From: Armatimonadota bacterium
Lineage (GTDB): Bacteria; Sysuimicrobiota; Sysuimicrobiia; Sysuimicrobiales; Humicultoraceae
Assembly: GCA_016199305.1 (NCBI GenBank)
Contig: JACQGZ010000253.1
Location: 1 to 10,855, forward strand
Reading direction: 5' to 3'
Length of the DNA stretch: 10,855 bases
Shown here: one piece after another, positions 1,432-10,855 of the stretch
Position numbering within the stretch: position 1 is the stretch's first letter
Layout of the letters: each line of letters starts with the position of its first letter
Notes under the pieces: generated by a model
The model's database searches: none
What the model was told of the DNA's origin: nothing
What the model saw: the letters and a program-made list of their open reading frames with translations, nothing else
Translations under genes and position numbers: made by a program

Positions 1432-1872
1432 ATGAAAACGAAGACGATGCGGCAATCGGTGACGTTCAAGGCGACGCCGCACGACGTCTACGAGGCCCTG
1501 ATGGATTCCCGGAAGCACAGAAGCTTCACAGGCGGCGGGGCCCGCATCAGCCGGAAGGTCGGCGGGAGATTCTCTGTCTTCGGCGGCTGGGCGGCAGGCA
1601 CCAACCTCGCCCTCACCCCGGACCGCAAGATCGTGCAGGCGTGGCGGTGCGAGGCGCGCGGATGGCCGCAGGACCACTACGCCAGAGCCACCTTCGCCCT
1701 GCGCCGGGTGCGGGGCGGCACGCGTCTCTCGTTCACGCAGTCGGGGGTGCCCGAGGCCGCCTACGCGGACATCAAACAGGGCTGGTGGGACAACTACTGG
1801 ATCCCGATGAAGGCGATGCTCGAACCTACAGGCGGCGGATCCACGGCACCGTCAGAGCGACGACGCCGATAA
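1432..1872 (+). CDS. SRPBCC / AHSA1-like (Hsp90 ATPase activator homologue) domain protein
   Basis: The product is 146 aa, predicted cytoplasmic, a single helix-grip START-like domain. Typical AHSA1-type features are the opening beta strand RQSVTFKATPHDVYEALMDS (residues 7-26), KVGGRFSVFGGWAAGTNLAL, the IVQAWRCEARGWP strand, TRLSFTQSGVP, and the closing amphipathic helix with GWWDNYWIPMKAML. Such domains bind hydrophobic ligands or act as small stress proteins; no specific ligand can be named. The ATG at 1432 has a weak AGGCGG at 1419-1424; a later ATG at 1447 is possible. The last 47 bases overlap the end of the convergent MFS gene, so the Arg-rich tail (PSERRRR) is encoded antisense to the exporter's C-terminus. 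Confidence 0.85.
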   Translation: MKTKTMRQSVTFKATPHDVYEALMDSRKHRSFTGGGARISRKVGGRFSVFGGWAAGTNLALTPDRKIVQAWRCEARGWPQDHYARATFALRRVRGGTRLSFTQSGVPEAAYADIKQGWWDNYWIPMKAMLEPTGGGSTAPSERRRR

Positions 1873-3088
1873 ACCCGATCAGCACAATGCCTCCGAGCGC
1901 CAGCGCCCAGTCCAACCCCAGGACATCGGCGAGCGCGCCGGCCGGCAGCGTGCCCAGCGCCATCATGCCGAAGGCCACGGTCCCGAAGAGGCCCATCGCG
2001 CGGCCCCGCGCGCCCGGCGCCACCGTTGTCTGCAGCAGGGTGTTCGCGGTCGCCATCGCCACCGACTGACCCAGCCCCACCGCCACCAGCAGGAGTGCCG
2101 AGAGCGGAAACGAGGTGGAGAGGCCGAAGAGCGTCACCATGATCCCCATGGTGAAGGCGGCCGCCAGGAGCATCGTCCCGGACTGCATCCGGGCGCTGCT
2201 CCAGCCGATCAGGAAGACGGCCAGCACCGTCCCCACGCCGGGCGCCGCCTGCAGGACGCCCAGGCCTTCCGGGCCCACCCCCAGCACCTCGCGCGCGACC
2301 GCCGGCATGAGCCGGATGTAGGGGCGGCCGAAGAAGCTCAGCGCCGCGACGACCAGCAGGAGCACCAGCACCGCCCGGTGCCGGACCACCATGGCTAGTC
2401 CTTCGCGGATGTCCTGGATCAGTGAGACCCGGCCTTCGGCGGCGAACGCCGGCAGGCGCATCGCCAGCAGCGCCCACAGCACCGCCAGGTAGGAACCCGC
2501 GTTCAGGAAGAACGCGCCGTGCGTGCCCACCAGGCTGATCATCACCCCGGCGAGCGCGGGCCCGAAGATCCCGGCGCCGTTGAAGGCCATAGAGTTGAGA
2601 CTGACCGATTGCAGGATCTCCCGGTCCTCGACCAGGCTCGGGGTCAGCGACTGCCGCGCCGGCATGTCAAAGGAATGGATCAGCGAGTTGAAGCCCGCAA
2701 TGGCCAGGAGGTGCCAGACCTCGATCAGCTGCAGGTATGTCAGGACCGCCAGCGTCAGGGCCGAGAGCATCGCGATAACGTTGGTGATCAACAGCACCGC
2801 CCGGCGGTCCACGCGATCGGCCATCACTCCGCCCAGGAAGGCAAAGAGCAGGCGCGGCACGGCCTGGACGACGCCGAGCAGCCCCAGGTAGATCGGCGCG
2901 CGCGTCAGTTGGTCCAGCAGGTACCCCAGGGCCGTGAACTGCATCCAGGCGCCGGTGTTGGAGACGATCAGGCCGCTCCAGAGCAGACGGTAGTTCCGGT
3001 GGCGCAGGGGGGCAAAGGCGCCCGGGCGCGGCGGCTCCGCCGCCACAATCGTGTCAGGGATGGTCTCGTCGGGCACGGTCCTTTCCAT
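1826..3088 (-). CDS. MFS transporter, EntS-like (MFS_3) drug/siderophore exporter
   Basis: This 420-aa inner-membrane protein has about twelve hydrophobic segments starting near residue 35. MFS motif A (GGVMADRVDRR, residues 86-96) lies between the second and third helices. DMPARQSLTPSLVE (141-154) is characteristic of the EntS/MFS_3 branch, where it is usually PARQALxPxLV. The second half carries PGVGTVLAVFLIGW and GRAMGLFGTVAFGMMALG, again typical. Members export enterobactin, macrolides or other small molecules using the proton gradient; the substrate is unknown here. The ATG at 3088 lacks a clear Shine-Dalgarno and is preceded by a small inverted repeat (3094-3098/3107-3111); a GTG at 3076 is an alternative. 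It is divergent from the beta-lactamase-like gene and overlaps the SRPBCC gene tail-to-tail. Confidence 0.92.
   Translation of the reverse strand: MERTVPDETIPDTIVAAEPPRPGAFAPLRHRNYRLLWSGLIVSNTGAWMQFTALGYLLDQLTRAPIYLGLLGVVQAVPRLLFAFLGGVMADRVDRRAVLLITNVIAMLSALTLAVLTYLQLIEVWHLLAIAGFNSLIHSFDMPARQSLTPSLVEDREILQSVSLNSMAFNGAGIFGPALAGVMISLVGTHGAFFLNAGSYLAVLWALLAMRLPAFAAEGRVSLIQDIREGLAMVVRHRAVLVLLLVVAALSFFGRPYIRLMPAVAREVLGVGPEGLGVLQAAPGVGTVLAVFLIGWSSARMQSGTMLLAAAFTMGIMVTLFGLSTSFPLSALLLVAVGLGQSVAMATANTLLQTTVAPGARGRAMGLFGTVAFGMMALGTLPAGALADVLGLDWALALGGIVLIGFIGVVALTVPWIRRL

Positions 3089-4091: not shown

Positions 4092-4113
<22 letters not shown>
3223..4113 (+). CDS. Class A beta-lactamase-fold serine hydrolase, cytoplasmic, lacking Glu166 motif
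   Basis: The 296-aa protein has the penicilloyl-serine transferase motifs in order: S43-C-I-K46 (SxxK nucleophile), S104-D-N106 (SDN loop) and K214-S-G216 followed by SLRGVRNDVGIV (KTG-like strand). The class A general base Glu166 in ExxLN is not found: residues 125-166 contain no Glu at all, and the omega-loop position reads TISLDDDRPLAHGTP. There is no signal peptide, and an upstream in-frame TGA (3151-3153) with no ATG, GTG or TTG codon before 3223 rules out a longer form. The GTG start has a GGGAGG Shine-Dalgarno at 3209-3214. True class A enzymes are exported and need Glu166 for deacylation, so this is better read as a Beta-lactamase2-family esterase or peptidase-like hydrolase than as a resistance enzyme. 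Its last 22 bases overlap the convergent molybdoenzyme gene. Confidence 0.88.
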
Positions 4114-4688
<575 letters not shown>

Positions 4689-4689
4689 G

Positions 4690-5298
4690 TCACGGCTCAT
4701 TATACGGCCCGTCATGAAGATTGTGTGAAGAGCGCGTGGCGCGCAGATTATAGGCGTTCATGGCGGCCTCGATCCCGCGGCGGATGAAGAGCTCAACGGC
4801 GTCGGCCCCCCGTTCCACCGCGGTCTCGACCGCGGGAAGGTCGTCGGGCGCAAACCGGCTGAGCACGTAGTCGGCCGGGTCCCTCCCCTGGGGCGGCCGC
4901 CCGATTCCGACGCGCAGACGAGGAAAGCCACGCTCGCCGAGGGCATCGATGATCGAGCGCATCCCATTGTGTCCGCCGTGCCCACCCTGCGCCCGCAGCC
5001 GCATCTGCCCCACCGGGAGGTCCAGGTCGTCGAAGATGACGAGCAGATCTCCCAGTGACACGCGATGGCGGCGCCGCAGGTCGGCGACGGCCGCGCCGCT
5101 GACGTTCACGTATGTCTGCGGGCGGGCCAGCAAGGCGCGGCGGCCGTCCAGGGCCAGGGCGCCGGTCTCCGCCCATCCCTCCTCCCGCAGGGCGACGCCG
5201 TGGCGGCGCGCCAGCGCCTCGACGACGCGGGCGCCGACGTTGTGCCGCGTGCCGCTGTAGCGGCGGCCGGGATTCCCCAATCCGACGATCAGTCTCAT
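4690..5298 (-). CDS. pth: Peptidyl-tRNA hydrolase
   Basis: This 202-aa cytoplasmic enzyme hydrolyses the ester bond of peptidyl-tRNAs released from stalled ribosomes, recycling tRNA. Family signatures are MRLIVGLGNPG with Asn9, TRHNVG with catalytic His19, QTYVNVSG with Asn65, FDDLDLPVG with Asp90 and GGHGGHNGMRSI with Asn111, matching E. coli Asn10, His20, Asn68, Asp93 and Asn114. The frame is open further upstream, but the ATG at 5298 is fixed by the family's N-terminus and a GGAGAGA Shine-Dalgarno (about 5305-5312). Longer starts would run through the rplY terminator hairpin. It lies downstream of rplY, a very common bacterial pairing, but separated by a terminator-like hairpin. Its last codons carry the promoter of the following gene. 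Confidence 0.97.
   Translation of the reverse strand: MRLIVGLGNPGRRYSGTRHNVGARVVEALARRHGVALREEGWAETGALALDGRRALLARPQTYVNVSGAAVADLRRRHRVSLGDLLVIFDDLDLPVGQMRLRAQGGHGGHNGMRSIIDALGERGFPRLRVGIGRPPQGRDPADYVLSRFAPDDLPAVETAVERGADAVELFIRRGIEAAMNAYNLRATRSSHNLHDGPYNEP
4699..4729 (-). promoter_or_regulatory. Promoter inside the 3' end of pth (TTCACA-19-TATAAT) for the molybdoenzyme gene
   Basis: On the minus strand TTCACA (4724-4729) and a perfect TATAAT (4699-4704) are separated by 19 bp. Initiation 6-9 bases downstream would fall within a few bases of the ATG at 4688, giving a leaderless or near-leaderless transcript. The lack of any Shine-Dalgarno before all three candidate ATGs agrees with this. The spacing is longer than ideal. 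Confidence 0.5.
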
Positions 5299-5331
5299 GT
5301 GGCGTCTCTCCGCCGGCGATCTCAGAACGGC

Positions 5332-5359
5332 AAAACGGGGGTGCCGCCGGCACCCCCGT
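5332..5359 (-). terminator. Intrinsic terminator or attenuator between rplY and pth
   Basis: A perfect 11-bp GC-rich stem (5335-5345 paired with 5349-5359, arms ACGGGGGTGCC / GGCACCCCCGT) with a 3-base loop is followed on the minus strand by TTTT. A second, weaker hairpin built on the TCTGGCCAGA palindrome (5371-5380) lies between the rplY stop and this stem. The short T-run suggests partial rather than complete termination, which would allow some read-through into pth. Confidence 0.7.
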
Positions 5360-5385
5360 CCCTGGAGCACTCTGGCCAGACTCCG

Positions 5386-6072
5386 TTACTTCTCTTCCGA
5401 TTCCGGCTCCTTCGCAGGCGCCGCAGCGGGCGTCTCTGCCGCCTCGCCCTCTGCCACCTCCGCCGGAACCGCCTCCGCGGCGGCCGGCACGGCCGGCACC
5501 TCCTCCACCCGCGGCGTCAGCACCGTGGCCACGACCGCTCCGGTCGGCGTCAACAGGGTGACGCGGTCGGGGATGGCCAATTCCCCGGCATGGATCGTGT
5601 GTCCGATGGTCAGCCCCGTGACGTCGACCTCGATGTGCTCGGGGATCTGCGTGGGCAGGCACTCCACCAGCACCTCACGCAGATGCTGCTCGAGCACTCC
5701 GCCGTCGACCACACCCTTAGGCGTGCCCAGCAGGATGACCGGCACGTGCGCCTCGAGGGTCTCCTCCAGGGAGATGACGTGAAAGTCTACGTGGATGATG
5801 TCGTGCGTGAAGAGATCCCGCTGCAGGTCCTTCACCATCACCAGCTGCTTGTCCGCACCGTCGTTCCCCTGAATGCCCAGGTCGATCAGCACGTTCAGAC
5901 CGGCGTGGGTGTGCAGCGTGGCCTTCAGCGCCTTGCCCTCGACGGCCACCGCCTGGGACTCCCGCCCGTGACCGTAGACGACTGCCGGCACCTGCCCGCT
6001 CTTGCGCAGCCGCCGGGCGCCGGTCTTGCCCTGTCCGTCCCGGAGATTGGCCGCGAGATTGACCCGTTCCAT
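5386..6072 (-). CDS. rplY: 50S ribosomal protein bL25, Ctc/TL5 long form
   Basis: The 228-aa protein binds 5S rRNA in the large ribosomal subunit. The N-terminal L25 domain (about residues 1-95) has the classic GKTGARRLRKSGQVPAVVYG segment and FTHDIIHVDFHVIS strand. The TL5/CTC C-terminal beta domain follows (about 96-185: AHVPVILLGTPKGV, GGVLEQHLREVLVECLP, IPEHIEVDVTGLTIG). The last 40 or so residues are a low-complexity Ala/Pro/Glu tail ending in EPESEEK, as seen in many high-GC bacteria. The ATG at 6072 has a GGAGGG Shine-Dalgarno (6079-6084) at six bases. It is transcribed from its own TATAAT promoter with a hairpin-bearing leader. Confidence 0.97.
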   Translation of the reverse strand: MERVNLAANLRDGQGKTGARRLRKSGQVPAVVYGHGRESQAVAVEGKALKATLHTHAGLNVLIDLGIQGNDGADKQLVMVKDLQRDLFTHDIIHVDFHVISLEETLEAHVPVILLGTPKGVVDGGVLEQHLREVLVECLPTQIPEHIEVDVTGLTIGHTIHAGELAIPDRVTLLTPTGAVVATVLTPRVEEVPAVPAAAEAVPAEVAEGEAAETPAAAPAKEPESEEK

Positions 6073-7270: not shown

Positions 7271-8020
7271 TCAGTGGCGCGCCGCCCTGCGCGCGAGGAA
7301 GAGGGTGCGGCCGACGTTCCCGGTCATCCCCAGGTCCCGCTCCGCTTCCCGGGTCGAGATCTCGCCGAAGCCAGCTTCGCCCAGGACGCCGCGCACCTCG
7401 GCCTCGGTGTAGCAGCGTTGCACCAGGGTCACGTCCGACCGCCGCCAGACGCCTCCCTCCAGCCGGAACATCGTGATCTCGTTCCGGCCGACCCTCTCAT
7501 CCGGGTCGAACCGGGCGCGCACCGCGCAGACGTTGTCCTCCTCCACGAACGCCACGGACCCTCGCCAGCGCGCCCGATAGCCCCCCTCCATGTTGAGGTC
7601 GAAGAGGAAGCGGCCGCCGTCGAGCAGGGCCGCGTGGACGTTGCGGAAGACCGCCGTCAATTCGTCGAGCGACATGATGTGGTTCAGGCTGTCAAAGGTC
7701 GAGAGAACCCCATGGTAGGCGGCCGGCAGCAAGAAGCGGCGGGCATCGGCGGCGACGAACTCGACGCCGGGAGCATTGGCGCGCGCCAGCGCCAGCATCG
7801 CCTCCGATCCGTCCAGCCCCGTGACCCGGAACCCCTGGGCGTGGAGGACGCCCGCCAGCTGGCCGGTGCCGCAGCAGAGGTCCAGGATGCGGGCCTCCGG
7901 CGGCAGGTGGGAGAGGAGCAGCTGCTCGATCACCGCCAGGAACCGGCTGGCGAAGGTACCACCCCAGTAGCGGTTGTAGAACCAGGCGAAGGCGTCGTAG
8001 TCCTCGTAGCGCTCACTCAT
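7271..8020 (-). CDS. Class I SAM-dependent methyltransferase
   Basis: The 249-aa protein starts MSERYEDYDAFAWFYNRYWG. Rossmann motif I is ILDLCCGTGQLAGVL (residues 45-59), the acidic residue after strand 2 is in VTGLDGSEAML (Asp70), motif II is VEFVAADARRF, and strand 4 contains GVLSTFDSLNHI. The C-terminal half carries the substrate part with VTLVQRCYTEAEVRGVLGEAGF, typical of small-molecule methyltransferases. It lacks the conserved cysteine set expected of ArsM arsenite methyltransferases. The substrate cannot be assigned. The ATG at 8020 overlaps the TGA of the upstream methyltransferase as ATGA, with a GAGGGG Shine-Dalgarno just upstream; a longer in-frame start at 8059 is unlikely. Confidence 0.88.
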   Translation of the reverse strand: MSERYEDYDAFAWFYNRYWGGTFASRFLAVIEQLLLSHLPPEARILDLCCGTGQLAGVLHAQGFRVTGLDGSEAMLALARANAPGVEFVAADARRFLLPAAYHGVLSTFDSLNHIMSLDELTAVFRNVHAALLDGGRFLFDLNMEGGYRARWRGSVAFVEEDNVCAVRARFDPDERVGRNEITMFRLEGGVWRRSDVTLVQRCYTEAEVRGVLGEAGFGEISTREAERDLGMTGNVGRTLFLARRAARH

Positions 8021-8740
8021 CTCTTCGCCCCTCGCGGCATCGGCGCGATACCGATGCACAGCCCGCGCCCCATCAGCCCCTTGCGGTCAACGATGACCTC
8101 GAGTCCCGCGCCGCGCAGCGCCGCCGCATATTGCGTGAAGCTGAAGAGACCGAGCCGATGACGCTCGGTGAAGTGCTTGATCCGTCCCCGCTGGGCCACC
8201 AGGTAGTGAAAGTCGAGGACCGACTGACCACGCGCCAGCCGGGTGACATTCATCCGGGCAACCTTCAGGTCGGGGTGACCGACAAACTGTCCATCCGTGC
8301 GGCCGGCTTTGAATCGCTCGGGGGTCAGCCAGGGCTCGATGATCAGCACGCCGCCCGGACGAAGGTGGCGGGCCATCGTCTCGACCGCCCGGGCGAAGCC
8401 GGGAGAGCGTCGTCGCGTAGCCGATGGCGCTGAACAGACAGGTCACCACATCGAAGCGGCGGCCCAGGGCGAACCGCACCATGTCGCCCCGGTGATAGAC
8501 GACGTCGGGGTGCTTGCGCCGGGCGATCGCCAGCAGCCTGGGGTCGAGGTCGAGCCCCTCGACCGCGTAGCGCCCTTTGAGGAAGGTGATGTGCCCGCCG
8601 GTGCCGCAGGCGACATCGAGCAGGGCATTGCCGGGGGAGCGCTTGTACCGCCAGATCAGCGCGTGGAGGCGGCGAGCCTCCCCCTTGTAGTCCTTCCAGG
8701 CGTAGAGGGCATCGTAGTAGGCGGCGGACTTCCTAAACAC
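8017..8740 (-). pseudogene. TylM1/DesVI-like SAM-dependent methyltransferase, frameshifted
   Basis: Two frames together make one methyltransferase of about 240 aa. The N-terminal part starts at GTG 8740 (FRKSAAYYDALYAWKDYKGEA, motif I LLDVACGTGGHITFL, then YHRGDMVRF and CLFSAIGYATTL). The C-terminal part reads MARHLRPGGVLIIEPWLTPERF, then IKHFTERHRLGLFSFTQYAAALRGAGLEV and GLCIGIAP. The order and motifs match sugar N,N-dimethyltransferases of the TylM1/DesVI type. The frames join if one C is removed from the CCC run at 8401-8403 (minus strand), restoring TLSGFARAVETMARHLRPGG. Everything else is intact, so this is either a recent lesion or a sequencing/assembly error. The GTG overlaps the ArsC-like gene's TAG by eight bases, and its TGA overlaps the next gene's ATG. 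Confidence 0.82.
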
Positions 8741-9143
8741 CGCTCTGCGCCTCGCTTTCCAGTTCGGCCCGCAGCCCTGCGATGCGGCCGCGCAACGCAT
8801 CCCGGGTCCGCCGGTGCTCGTCGAGATCGCCGGGGCGCGGGCCCGGCAGCGCCCAGTGGAGCGAGCGGGCTCCGGGGATGACCGGGCAGGCCTCCTCCGC
8901 GCACAGGCCGACGACCAGGGCCACATCCGGCCCCGCCGCCTCGGCGAGGCCCTTGGGGCGCTGCGGGGAGATGTCGATCCCGACTTCGCCCATGACGGCG
9001 ATTGCCTCAGGCCGCACCCTCGCAGCGGGCTCCGTTCCCGCGGAGCGCGCCCGCCACCCTGGCGGGGGCGCCGCGTTGAAGAACCCCTCCGCCATCTGGG
9101 AGCGGGCGGAGTTTCCGATTCAGACGAACAGGATGGTCTTCAT
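8733..9143 (-). CDS. arsC: Selenocysteine-containing arsenate reductase (ArsC/LMW protein-tyrosine-phosphatase fold); Sec at TGA 9120-9122
   Basis: Read through the TGA at 9120-9122, the frame gives a 136-aa protein beginning MKTILFV-U-IGNSARSQMAE and ending at TAG 8733-8735. The P-loop is C-X5-R-S in this family; here residue 8 is TGA in place of the nucleophilic Cys, with Arg14 and Ser15 retained. Cys81 and Cys86 (LCAEEACPVIPG) fit the resolving pair of thioredoxin-coupled arsenate reductases, and SAGTEPAARVRPEAI and HWALPGP are also family segments. The expected reaction is reduction of arsenate to arsenite in the cytoplasm, with Sec as nucleophile. The ATG at 9143 has a GAGG Shine-Dalgarno (9150-9153). 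A start at the internal ATG 9095 would delete the whole active site. The alternative is a nonsense mutation, but its exact position and the adjoining hairpin favour selenocysteine. It is divergent from the phosphate-transport genes. Confidence 0.85.
9087..9122 (-). promoter_or_regulatory. Candidate bacterial SECIS element within arsC
   Basis: On the minus strand the TGA (9122-9120) is followed by 8 bases, then a perfect 7-bp stem CTCCGCC (9111-9105) / GGCGGAG (9093-9087) enclosing an 11-base loop CGCTCCCAGAT. The loop begins 16 bases after the TGA and has a G at its second position. Bacterial SECIS elements are in-frame hairpins right after the UGA, with the apical loop about 16-37 nt away and a G at its start, bound by SelB. 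The match is good but made by eye. Confidence 0.7.
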
Positions 9144-9296
9144 GGCACGCCTCGGTGTCCGCTTCGGCGGTCGCGGGGGCAGACCCTTCGCCCGCAGGAC
9201 CGACCCGCCGGCAGCGGGACGCCGCCGCGCGGGCAGGCCAGCCCCTGAGCCCGCTCGAATAGGGTAGGGCGAGAGCGGACAAAGGGAGGCGGGACA
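9144..9296. other. Divergent intergenic region between arsC and DUF47-PiT
   Basis: These 153 very GC-rich bases separate the divergent arsenate reductase-like and phosphate-transport operons. They hold both Shine-Dalgarno sequences. The only -10-like strings are weak: TAGGGT at 9260-9265 on the plus strand and overlapping TATT on the minus strand, with no convincing -35. I see no clear operator palindrome and no small gene. Confidence 0.4.
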
Positions 9297-9917
9297 ATGG
9301 CGCTGCGGTGGCTGCCGCGCGAGGAGGTCTTCTTCGACCTGTTCAACCAGGCCGCCCAGAATATCCTGCAGGCGGCCAGGCAGTTGAAGGAGCTGATGGA
9401 CGACTACAGGGACGTGGAGCGGCGGGCCGAGGCGCTGAAGGCCCTGGAGGAGAAGGGCGATGAGATCATCCACACCATCATCGAGCGCCTCAACCGGACG
9501 TTCGTCACCCCGCTGGACCGCGAGGACATCCTGACCCTGGCCAAACAACTGGATAACGTCCTCGACTGGATCGAAGCCTGCGCGGCTCGCATGGCCATCT
9601 ACCGCATCCCCCACGCCACGCCGGAGGCCCAGGAGCTCGCCCACATCATCGTCAACATCTGCGAGGCGATGGTCGAAGGGGTGGGCAGCCTGCGGGGCAA
9701 ACACGATCGGGTGGACGGCGTGGTGCAGGAGATCAACCGCCTGGAGAACCTGGCCGACCACGTGCATCGGGATGCCATCGCCAAACTCTTCGCCGACCAC
9801 GTCGATGCCATCGACGTGATCAAGTGGAAGGAGATCTACGAGACGCTGGAGGAGGCCACCGACCAGGGCGAGGACGTCGCCAACGCGCTCGAATCCATCC
9901 GCGGGAAGAACATGTAG
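9297..9917 (+). CDS. DUF47 (UPF0111) PhoU-like phosphate transport regulator
   Basis: The product is 206 aa, all-helical, predicted cytoplasmic. It begins MALRWLPREEVFFDLFNQAAQNIL, the usual DUF47 opening with a short N-terminal extension. It continues through ALEEKGDEIIHTIIERLNRTFVTPLDREDI, the family's most conserved block, and LDNVLDWIEACAARM. It ends with DAIDVIKWKEIYETLEEATDQGEDVANALESI, the hallmark C-terminal helix. DUF47 proteins are nearly always encoded beside PiT permeases and are thought to modulate them, as PhoU does for Pst. The ATG at 9297 has a GGGAGG Shine-Dalgarno (9284-9289). The stop lies two bases before the PiT GTG, so the two are one operon. Confidence 0.95.
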   Translation: MALRWLPREEVFFDLFNQAAQNILQAARQLKELMDDYRDVERRAEALKALEEKGDEIIHTIIERLNRTFVTPLDREDILTLAKQLDNVLDWIEACAARMAIYRIPHATPEAQELAHIIVNICEAMVEGVGSLRGKHDRVDGVVQEINRLENLADHVHRDAIAKLFADHVDAIDVIKWKEIYETLEEATDQGEDVANALESIRGKNM

Positions 9918-9919
9918 CC

Positions 9920-10855
9920 GTGGACCTGACGGTCCCCGCCGGGCTGATTCCGGTCCTCCTGCTGGTCCTCGCCGCCGAGTTCGTCAACGGCTGGACGGAT
10001 GCGCCGAACGCGATCGCCACGGTCGTCTCCACCCGGGTGCTCGCGCCGATGACGGCCCTGATCATGGCCACCGCGCTGAACATTGTCGGGGCGATGACCG
10101 GCACGGCGGTGGCCGCCACCATCGGCAAGGGGATCATCCGCGCCGACGCGATCGACGCGGTGACGATCGCCGGCGCGATGCTGGCCATCATCATGTGGTC
10201 CACGCTGGCGGCCTTCCGCGGCCTCCCCACCAGCGAGAGCCACGCCCTGGTGGCCGGCCTGGCCGGCGCCGGCCTGGCCGCGGCGGGACCTGGGGTCCTG
10301 CTCGCGGACGGGTGGCGGAAGGTCTTCATCGGCATTGGGTTCTCCACGGTCCTGGGATTCGCCGGCGGCTTCCTCCTCATGGTCGCGGTCTCCTGGATCT
10401 TTCGTCGTACGCCGCTGCGGCTGGCCCGCCGGCTCTTCGGCCGGTTGCAGATGTTGTCGGCGGCCTTCATGGCCTTCAGCCACGGCAGCAACGATGGCCA
10501 GAAGTTCATCGGGGTCTTCACGCTGGCCCTCGTCCTTGGCGGCGTCCTCCCGGAGTTCCGCATCCCGATTTGGGTCATCCTCCTCTGCGCGGGGACAATG
10601 GGCATCGGCACCGCCATCGGCGGCTGGCGCATCGTGGCCACGATGGGGTTGCGCCTGACGAAACTGGAGCCGTATCAGGGGTTCGCCGCCGAGACCGCGG
10701 CCGCGACGGCGATCGAAGTGGCCAGCCGGCTGGGGATCCCCCTCAGCACCACGCACACGATCAATACCGCGATCATGGGCGTGGGGGCCACCCGGCGGCT
10801 GTCAGCGGTGCGCTGGGGGGTGGGGCTGGAGATCGTCACGGCCTGGGTGCTGACC
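9920..10855 (+). CDS. PiT-family low-affinity inorganic phosphate transporter, 3' truncated by window edge
   Basis: The frame opens at GTG 9920 and stays open to the window end (312 codons). It encodes an inner-membrane permease that takes up phosphate, usually as a neutral metal-phosphate complex with protons, or with sodium in some relatives. Both inverted PiT signature repeats are present: EFVNGWTDAPNAIATVVSTR near residue 20 and FSHGSNDGQKFIGVFTLAL near residue 189. The paired LPTSESHALVAGLAG and LSTTHTINTAIMGVGA segments are also seen. The usual NGFHDAANA is here NGWTDAPNA, a known variant. About seven to eight hydrophobic segments are visible. Arsenate, a phosphate mimic, commonly enters by PiT carriers, which is notable beside an arsenate reductase. 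The start is coupled to the preceding DUF47 stop. Confidence 0.95.
   Translation, partial: MDLTVPAGLIPVLLLVLAAEFVNGWTDAPNAIATVVSTRVLAPMTALIMATALNIVGAMTGTAVAATIGKGIIRADAIDAVTIAGAMLAIIMWSTLAAFRGLPTSESHALVAGLAGAGLAAAGPGVLLADGWRKVFIGIGFSTVLGFAGGFLLMVAVSWIFRRTPLRLARRLFGRLQMLSAAFMAFSHGSNDGQKFIGVFTLALVLGGVLPEFRIPIWVILLCAGTMGIGTAIGGWRIVATMGLRLTKLEPYQGFAAETAAATAIEVASRLGIPLSTTHTINTAIMGVGATRRLSAVRWGVGLEIVTAWVLT

Follow-up and report, generated by a model that had tools for sequence, protein, structure and literature searches.

We propose that the gene at positions 9143-8733 on the minus strand of the window (the whole stretch of DNA analysed, 10,855 nucleotides long) encodes an arsenate reductase-like protein of the thioredoxin type and the LMW-PTP fold, in which an in-frame UGA most probably specifies selenocysteine (Sec), the residue that would attack arsenate as the nucleophile. 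We give this reading a probability of about 80%. The gene almost surely encodes a selenoprotein, and the product is likely to be an arsenate reductase. Sec insertion, arsenate as the substrate and thioredoxin as the reductant are what we infer from the evidence below.

The gene and its in-frame TGA

The features of the gene are as follows, all on the minus strand.

9150..9154, minus: CGAGG, Shine-Dalgarno-like, six bases upstream of ATG 9143 (sequence)
8733..9143, minus: putative Sec-type arsenate reductase-like gene, LMW-PTP fold, 136 aa through the UGA (ORF, profile, alignment)
9120..9122, minus: in-frame TGA, residue 8, the P-loop nucleophile position, which is Cys in other ArsC proteins (TGA in 15/15 aligned loci)
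9099..9104, minus: Arg14-Ser15 of the P-loop, U-X5-R-S (invariant in the Sec-form and wider alignments)
9049..9107, minus: hairpin, candidate SECIS, nt 16-74 with the T of TGA as nt 1 (folding; stability supported, covariation not)
8901..8903, minus: codon of Cys81, a predicted resolving cysteine (unchanged in all 15 Sec forms)
8886..8888, minus: Cys86 codon, predicted exposed cysteine (invariant across all 31 aligned sequences)
8733..9095, minus: 120-aa ORF of standard gene calling, start ATG 9095 (without strand 1 and the P-loop nucleophile)

Read base for base, the frame runs from ATG (9143-9141) through MKTILFV, TGA (9122-9120) and IGNSARSQMAE to TAG (8735-8733), giving a product of 136 residues when the TGA is read through. 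An earlier note on this DNA had described this open frame, with a well-placed Shine-Dalgarno, a C-X5-R-S P-loop carrying TGA in place of Cys, and two resolving cysteines. The start, the TGA and the open frame are confirmed at every base, the CGAGG does lie six bases before the ATG, the loop reads U8-X5-R14-S15, and both C81 and C86 are present. Standard ORF calling likewise yields the 120-residue protein without an active site that the note had anticipated.

A six-frame search of 61 genomes, the window's own among them, detected homologues in 45. The nucleophile codon is TGA in 15 of the 43 genomes of the window's order (its own and 14 related ones), seven of these loci belonging to the window's family and six and two to two other families of the order. 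At this codon TAA and TAG occur in none of the 15 loci, and an ATG or GTG start codon stands exactly seven codons before the TGA in all of them. The next in-frame stop lies at least 125 codons beyond the TGA in 14/15 (L013 spans a run of N, and L014 leaves its contig). When all pairs of the 15 loci are compared, the five codons that precede the UGA have a pN/pS of 0.364, the 29 that follow it 0.357 and the remainder 0.339; the similarity of these values indicates that the sequence ahead of the UGA is under the same protein-level constraint as the remainder of the gene, with purifying selection on both sides. The apparent scarcity of synonymous changes after the UGA was dropped as an argument because a Cys group has the same gradient.

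These data bear directly on the reading of the UGA as a real stop, with the 120-aa downstream ORF as the product, or of the gene as decayed or misread. Such a reading would agree with standard gene calling and with the fact that the Sec machinery was not found in the window's own bin. Its probability is nevertheless negligible, since the codon is common to fifteen genomes, the strand-1 codons before it are under purifying selection, the frame beyond it stays open in 14 of the 15, and the 120-aa ORF lacks both strand 1 and the nucleophile. A pseudogene or a sequencing error is ruled out on the same ground of a shared codon. The argument of the earlier note that a random nonsense mutation was improbable is borne out by the distribution of the TGA in the order, and the decay or random stops that it had named as a possible objection were looked for in close relatives and not found, the TGA being kept at the exact codon. 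Homologues with either Cys or UGA at position 8, which it had suggested seeking, were both found: Cys occupies the nucleophile codon in 15 other fetched homologous loci (L016-L030) and in two database proteins, P0002 and P0025. The count of 15 Sec loci leaves out two TGA-flagged loci (G056:C111 and G048:C77, with two TGA). Two further loci flagged for an internal TGA, L017 and L018, were removed from the Sec set as Cys forms in which the TGA ends the gene, and an extra TAG in L003 is the end of its gene.

Selenocysteine machinery and a candidate SECIS hairpin

Among the 15 genomes with the gene, SelB exceeds its cut-off in 12, tRNA-Sec exceeds 60 bits in 12, and SelD exceeds its cut-off in 13, each of which has a SelD bearing one in-frame TGA. 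At least one of the three is present in 14/15, the exception being the window's own genome. In that MAG (69% complete, 343 contigs) no selA, selB or selD was found over cut-off and no clear tRNA-Sec. It is also the one without selA among the five genomes searched for this gene. In G001, G004 and G011 selA adjoins selB and tRNA-Sec lies near, and it can therefore be surmised that a single assembly gap could remove all three. The earlier note had pointed to selA, selB, selC and selD in the same genome as a check; this machinery is found in the relatives and not in the window's own incomplete assembly.

In some bacteria a tRNA-Cys with a UCA anticodon is known. A UGA read in this way as Cys, or as another amino acid, would make the product an ordinary Cys ArsC, in keeping with the Cys that homologues have at this place, two close relatives included. 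This is very improbable, because ARAGORN gives a tRNA-Sec with a UCA anticodon in 8/8 loci (the 15 genomes account for two of these), several of which adjoin selB, and because the SelD and FdhA of such genomes also carry UGA, in the case of FdhA in G001 and G007. The loci at which SelD is a Sec form with an in-frame TGA are L048-L050, L091-L099 and L101. In one genome, G040 (contigs C34, C11 and C81), selB, tRNA-Sec and selD are each present twice, and one selD without TGA adjoins one selB and a tRNA-Sec; this double set may reflect acquisition of a second Sec cluster, or else contamination, which the genome table puts at 6%.

We propose that decoding of the UGA in the reductase gene would depend on SelB and tRNA-Sec together with a hairpin that follows the codon. 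Against resampling of synonymous codons, nt 13-78 are more stable in the Sec loci, with a mean z of -2.06 (standard error 0.22) over the 15 loci, all of them negative, compared with -0.74 (0.26) in 15 Cys loci, which are more diverged as controls. When synonymous codons were permuted within columns, the observed mean energy was reached in 0/300 permutations for the Sec loci and 40/300 for the Cys loci; over the first 45 nt there was hardly any difference in stability. RNAalifold found double changes in 2 of the 15 pairs of the hairpin, and pair covariation in it was not significant, as 60 of 500 shuffles were as good. Its loop begins 36-41 nt past the UGA, at 37 or less in 6/15 loci, with the loop G in part of them only, while the usual bacterial SECIS model places the loop 16-37 nt past the UGA with a G in the first two positions (PMC13188914, in excerpt). 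A search for a SECIS common to the reductase gene and selD did not establish one, and Rfam gave nothing on the window at gathering scores. We thus regard the hairpin as a candidate SECIS. The selenoprotein interpretation put forward in the earlier note is supported, with relatives that keep the TGA, are free of decay and possess Sec machinery.

Predicted fold, catalytic cycle and phosphate-uptake neighbours

The window protein scores 63.2 bits against PF01451 LMWPc (LMW-PTP superfamily), for which the gathering cut-off is 23.2. It also matches the NCBIfam arsenate reductase models TIGR02691, PRK13530 and TIGR02689 below their cut-offs, reaching 77.3 bits against TIGR02691, the thioredoxin-type ArsC equivalog, under a curated cut-off of 174.3. 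Pfam, an AlphaFold model and comparison with the PDB uphold the ArsC/LMW-PTP fold named in the earlier note, and this fold, which is that of thioredoxin-type arsenate reductases, is predicted with high confidence. The U8 codon, N11, R14, S15, C81 and C86 are invariant in all 15 Sec-form loci, which therefore hold the ArsC-type set of a P-loop nucleophile and two resolving cysteines (U8, R14, C81 and C86 in 15/15), with a Sec codon replacing Cys. TIGR00014 and NF041106, the models of known Sec arsenate reductases, match none of the 15 members at E <= 0.01.

The protein could also be a true selenoprotein acting on another substrate: a Sec enzyme with the LMW-PTP fold might serve the metabolism of phosphate or pyrophosphate, either as a phosphatase or in thiol redox reactions. 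We consider this unlikely, although of appreciable probability. The three arsenate reductase models match all 15 Sec-form members, as opposed to weak matches of the phosphatase models to 7 and 3; the 24 best Foldseek matches are all arsenate reductases, and both ArsC-type resolving cysteines are invariant.

For arsenate reduction, the predicted cycle is modelled on the mechanism of pI258 ArsC, in which we take Cys82 and Cys89 to be the counterparts of Cys81 and Cys86. By analogy, Sec8 in the P-loop would bind arsenate, Cys81 would attack the Se-As adduct with release of arsenite and formation of an Se-S bond, Cys86 would then attack Cys81 to free Sec8, and the resulting Cys81-Cys86 disulfide would be reduced by thioredoxin. 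The Asp of the ArsC D-P motif is presumably the general acid, and the equivalent site here would be residue 101 (8841-8843), at which the window has G-P instead of D-P. In the 14 Sec forms that reach this far the site is D in eight, N in five and G in one, and Sec may perhaps relax the need for a general acid.

Upstream of the gene, two phosphate-uptake genes diverge from it.

9297..9917, plus: DUF47 (PhoU_div) gene, divergent from the reductase gene and paired with the Pit gene (PF01865, E 2.8e-30)
9914..10855, plus: Pit-type phosphate transporter gene, leaving the contig end (PF01384, E 7.1e-81)

Phosphate-uptake genes, recognised by Pfam or through membership of a BLAST cluster that contains a scanned protein, lie near the reductase gene in 13 of the 15 loci, related loci not being independent. 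They belong to two distinct uptake systems, each found repeatedly. The window, L068, L069, L077 and L081 have Pit and/or DUF47 (about 3 kb off in L081), while L071, L072, L073, L074, L078 and L079 have PhoU together with Pst-type genes. L075 and L076 have a PF12849 binding protein, inferred to be of the PstS type. At L070 three nearby ORFs were scanned and none is a phosphate gene, and at L080 the contig ends at the reductase gene. An inorganic pyrophosphatase gene directly follows the reductase gene in four loci, identified by Pfam in L078 and L081 and through the clusters in L077 and L079. No ars operon was seen among the neighbours scanned. Acr3 exceeds its cut-off in 2/15 genomes and ArsB in 4/15, three of them weakly, so that an arsenite pump of either kind is present in at most 4/15, which speaks against a classical ars system. 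The phosphate-uptake neighbours suggest that the enzyme would handle arsenate entering through phosphate transporters.

Downstream, a methyltransferase-like gene (window 8017-8740, minus), so named from its sequence, has a GTG overlapping the reductase TAG and is split by an apparent frameshift near 8376-8400; its piece 8020-8376 alone has no Pfam match. In G004 and G001 rplY follows the reductase gene in place of this methyltransferase-like gene. The gene order near the reductase is kept in these two genomes for rplY, pth, a molybdopterin oxidoreductase-like gene and an MFS gene (window 4690-6072, 4092-4715 and 1826-3088, all minus).

Distribution and relation to known selenoproteins

A UGA-motif pattern, which misses forms with other residues at its fixed places, was scanned over 84,980 species with one genome each. 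It returned nine contigs, namely eight MAG contigs (four ANGP1, three Armatimonadetes and one 'bacterium') and one of Hoeflea. The Hoeflea match (L064) was rejected as a chance occurrence outside any such gene; the remaining eight contigs have the same lengths as the contigs of eight of the 15 loci and were not added to these as further cases. ANGP1 stands under Candidatus Sysuimicrobiota at NCBI, and the window's genome, to judge from its kinship, presumably belongs to the same group. In a protein homologue search, 7,999 candidates were scored and 7,996 matched; among the best 120 of the 7,996, 117 start after the nucleophile codon, the window's own ORF among them, two have Cys there (P0002 and P0025) and P0004 has neither. 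In these protein records the UGA is presumably the cause of the N-terminal cuts. A search from P0025 gave at least 102 further proteins, of which 78 have Cys and 24 do not, 22 of the latter starting at Met17. P0141, with ArsC and pyrophosphatase domains in one record, was left out as it may be an assembly join.

Two trees were built, the first with 39 of 116 truncated proteins (every third) and the second with 24 of the 78 further Cys proteins and 4 of the 15 Cys loci. The Sec rows cluster together in the trees, apart from P0002 and P0025. The Cys protein P0002 sits beside L008 within the Sec clade (support 99/96), and P0025 lies at or in the base of this clade, its placement being unsure. A single clade of the 15 Sec rows alone is rejected (p-AU 0.032) because P0002 nests within. 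This position suggests, as the simplest reading, that the P0002 lineage returned to Cys.

Thioredoxin-coupled ArsC (S. aureus pI258, B. subtilis, A. fulgidus 1y1l) has the same LMW-PTP fold, an X-X5-R-S P-loop and, likewise, two more cysteines at disulfide-relay places, but its nucleophile is Cys where the window gene has a Sec codon. The cysteine spacing is C-x4-C in the window protein, as against C-x6-C in pI258, with x4 in A. fulgidus also. A further difference is that the window gene lies beside phosphate-uptake genes. The known Sec arsenate reductases (COG1393/pfam03960/TIGR00014 with UxxS; cd03032 and NF041106 with UxxC) share a predicted active-site Sec; they presumably have another fold, that of glutaredoxin-type ArsC, and belong to pfam03960, as against PF01451 for the window protein. 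Rhodanese-like selenoproteins offer another likeness, as we take the place of their catalytic Cys to lie in an anion-binding loop, with Sec there. Their fold and reaction are different (UxxS/UxxG, PF00581; Table 1 of PMC13188914).

In the literature, excerpts of PMC1088965, PMC9312934 and PMC2398784 give COG1393, pfam03960 and cd03032 for Sec arsenate reductases. An inventory published in 2026 distinguishes 119 families and subfamilies of prokaryotic selenoproteins; its Table 1 has arsenate reductases solely as TIGR00014 (UxxS) and NF041106 (UxxC), and PF01451 and TIGR02691 are absent from its text (PMC13188914). As its Sec arsenate reductases stand only under unrelated glutaredoxin-type models, the window gene looks like a new selenoprotein family. 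PMC1794560 includes selenoproteins termed 'ArsC-like' and 'distant ArsC homolog' in its counts, in passages that do not state their fold. Sec has been placed in the thioredoxin-type ArsC of B. subtilis by engineering, and, according to an excerpt of PMC4150793, it stands at residue 89, a resolving cysteine, and is inserted through UAG, whereas the window gene has UGA at the nucleophile. No natural Sec protein of the LMW-PTP fold was among the literature matches listed, and recent work could list the family; a paper on Sysuimicrobiota (PMC11604079) contains no word starting with 'selen'. This is probably a new natural selenoprotein family, the first reported with a Sec nucleophile in a PTP-type P-loop: it would be a selenium-based arsenate reductase linked to the uptake of phosphate, widespread within a single uncultured phylum but concealed in databases by records that lack the N-terminus.

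The LMW-PTP fold is a classic scaffold for a cysteine nucleophile, while a thioredoxin-like fold is found in most of the selenoproteins characterised so far (PMC13188914). A Sec family with close Cys relatives such as P0002 and P0025 would permit a direct test of the benefit of selenium, in arsenate reduction or in phosphoryl-type chemistry, and the start of 117 of the best 120 database proteins past the catalytic codon points to a systematic annotation error.
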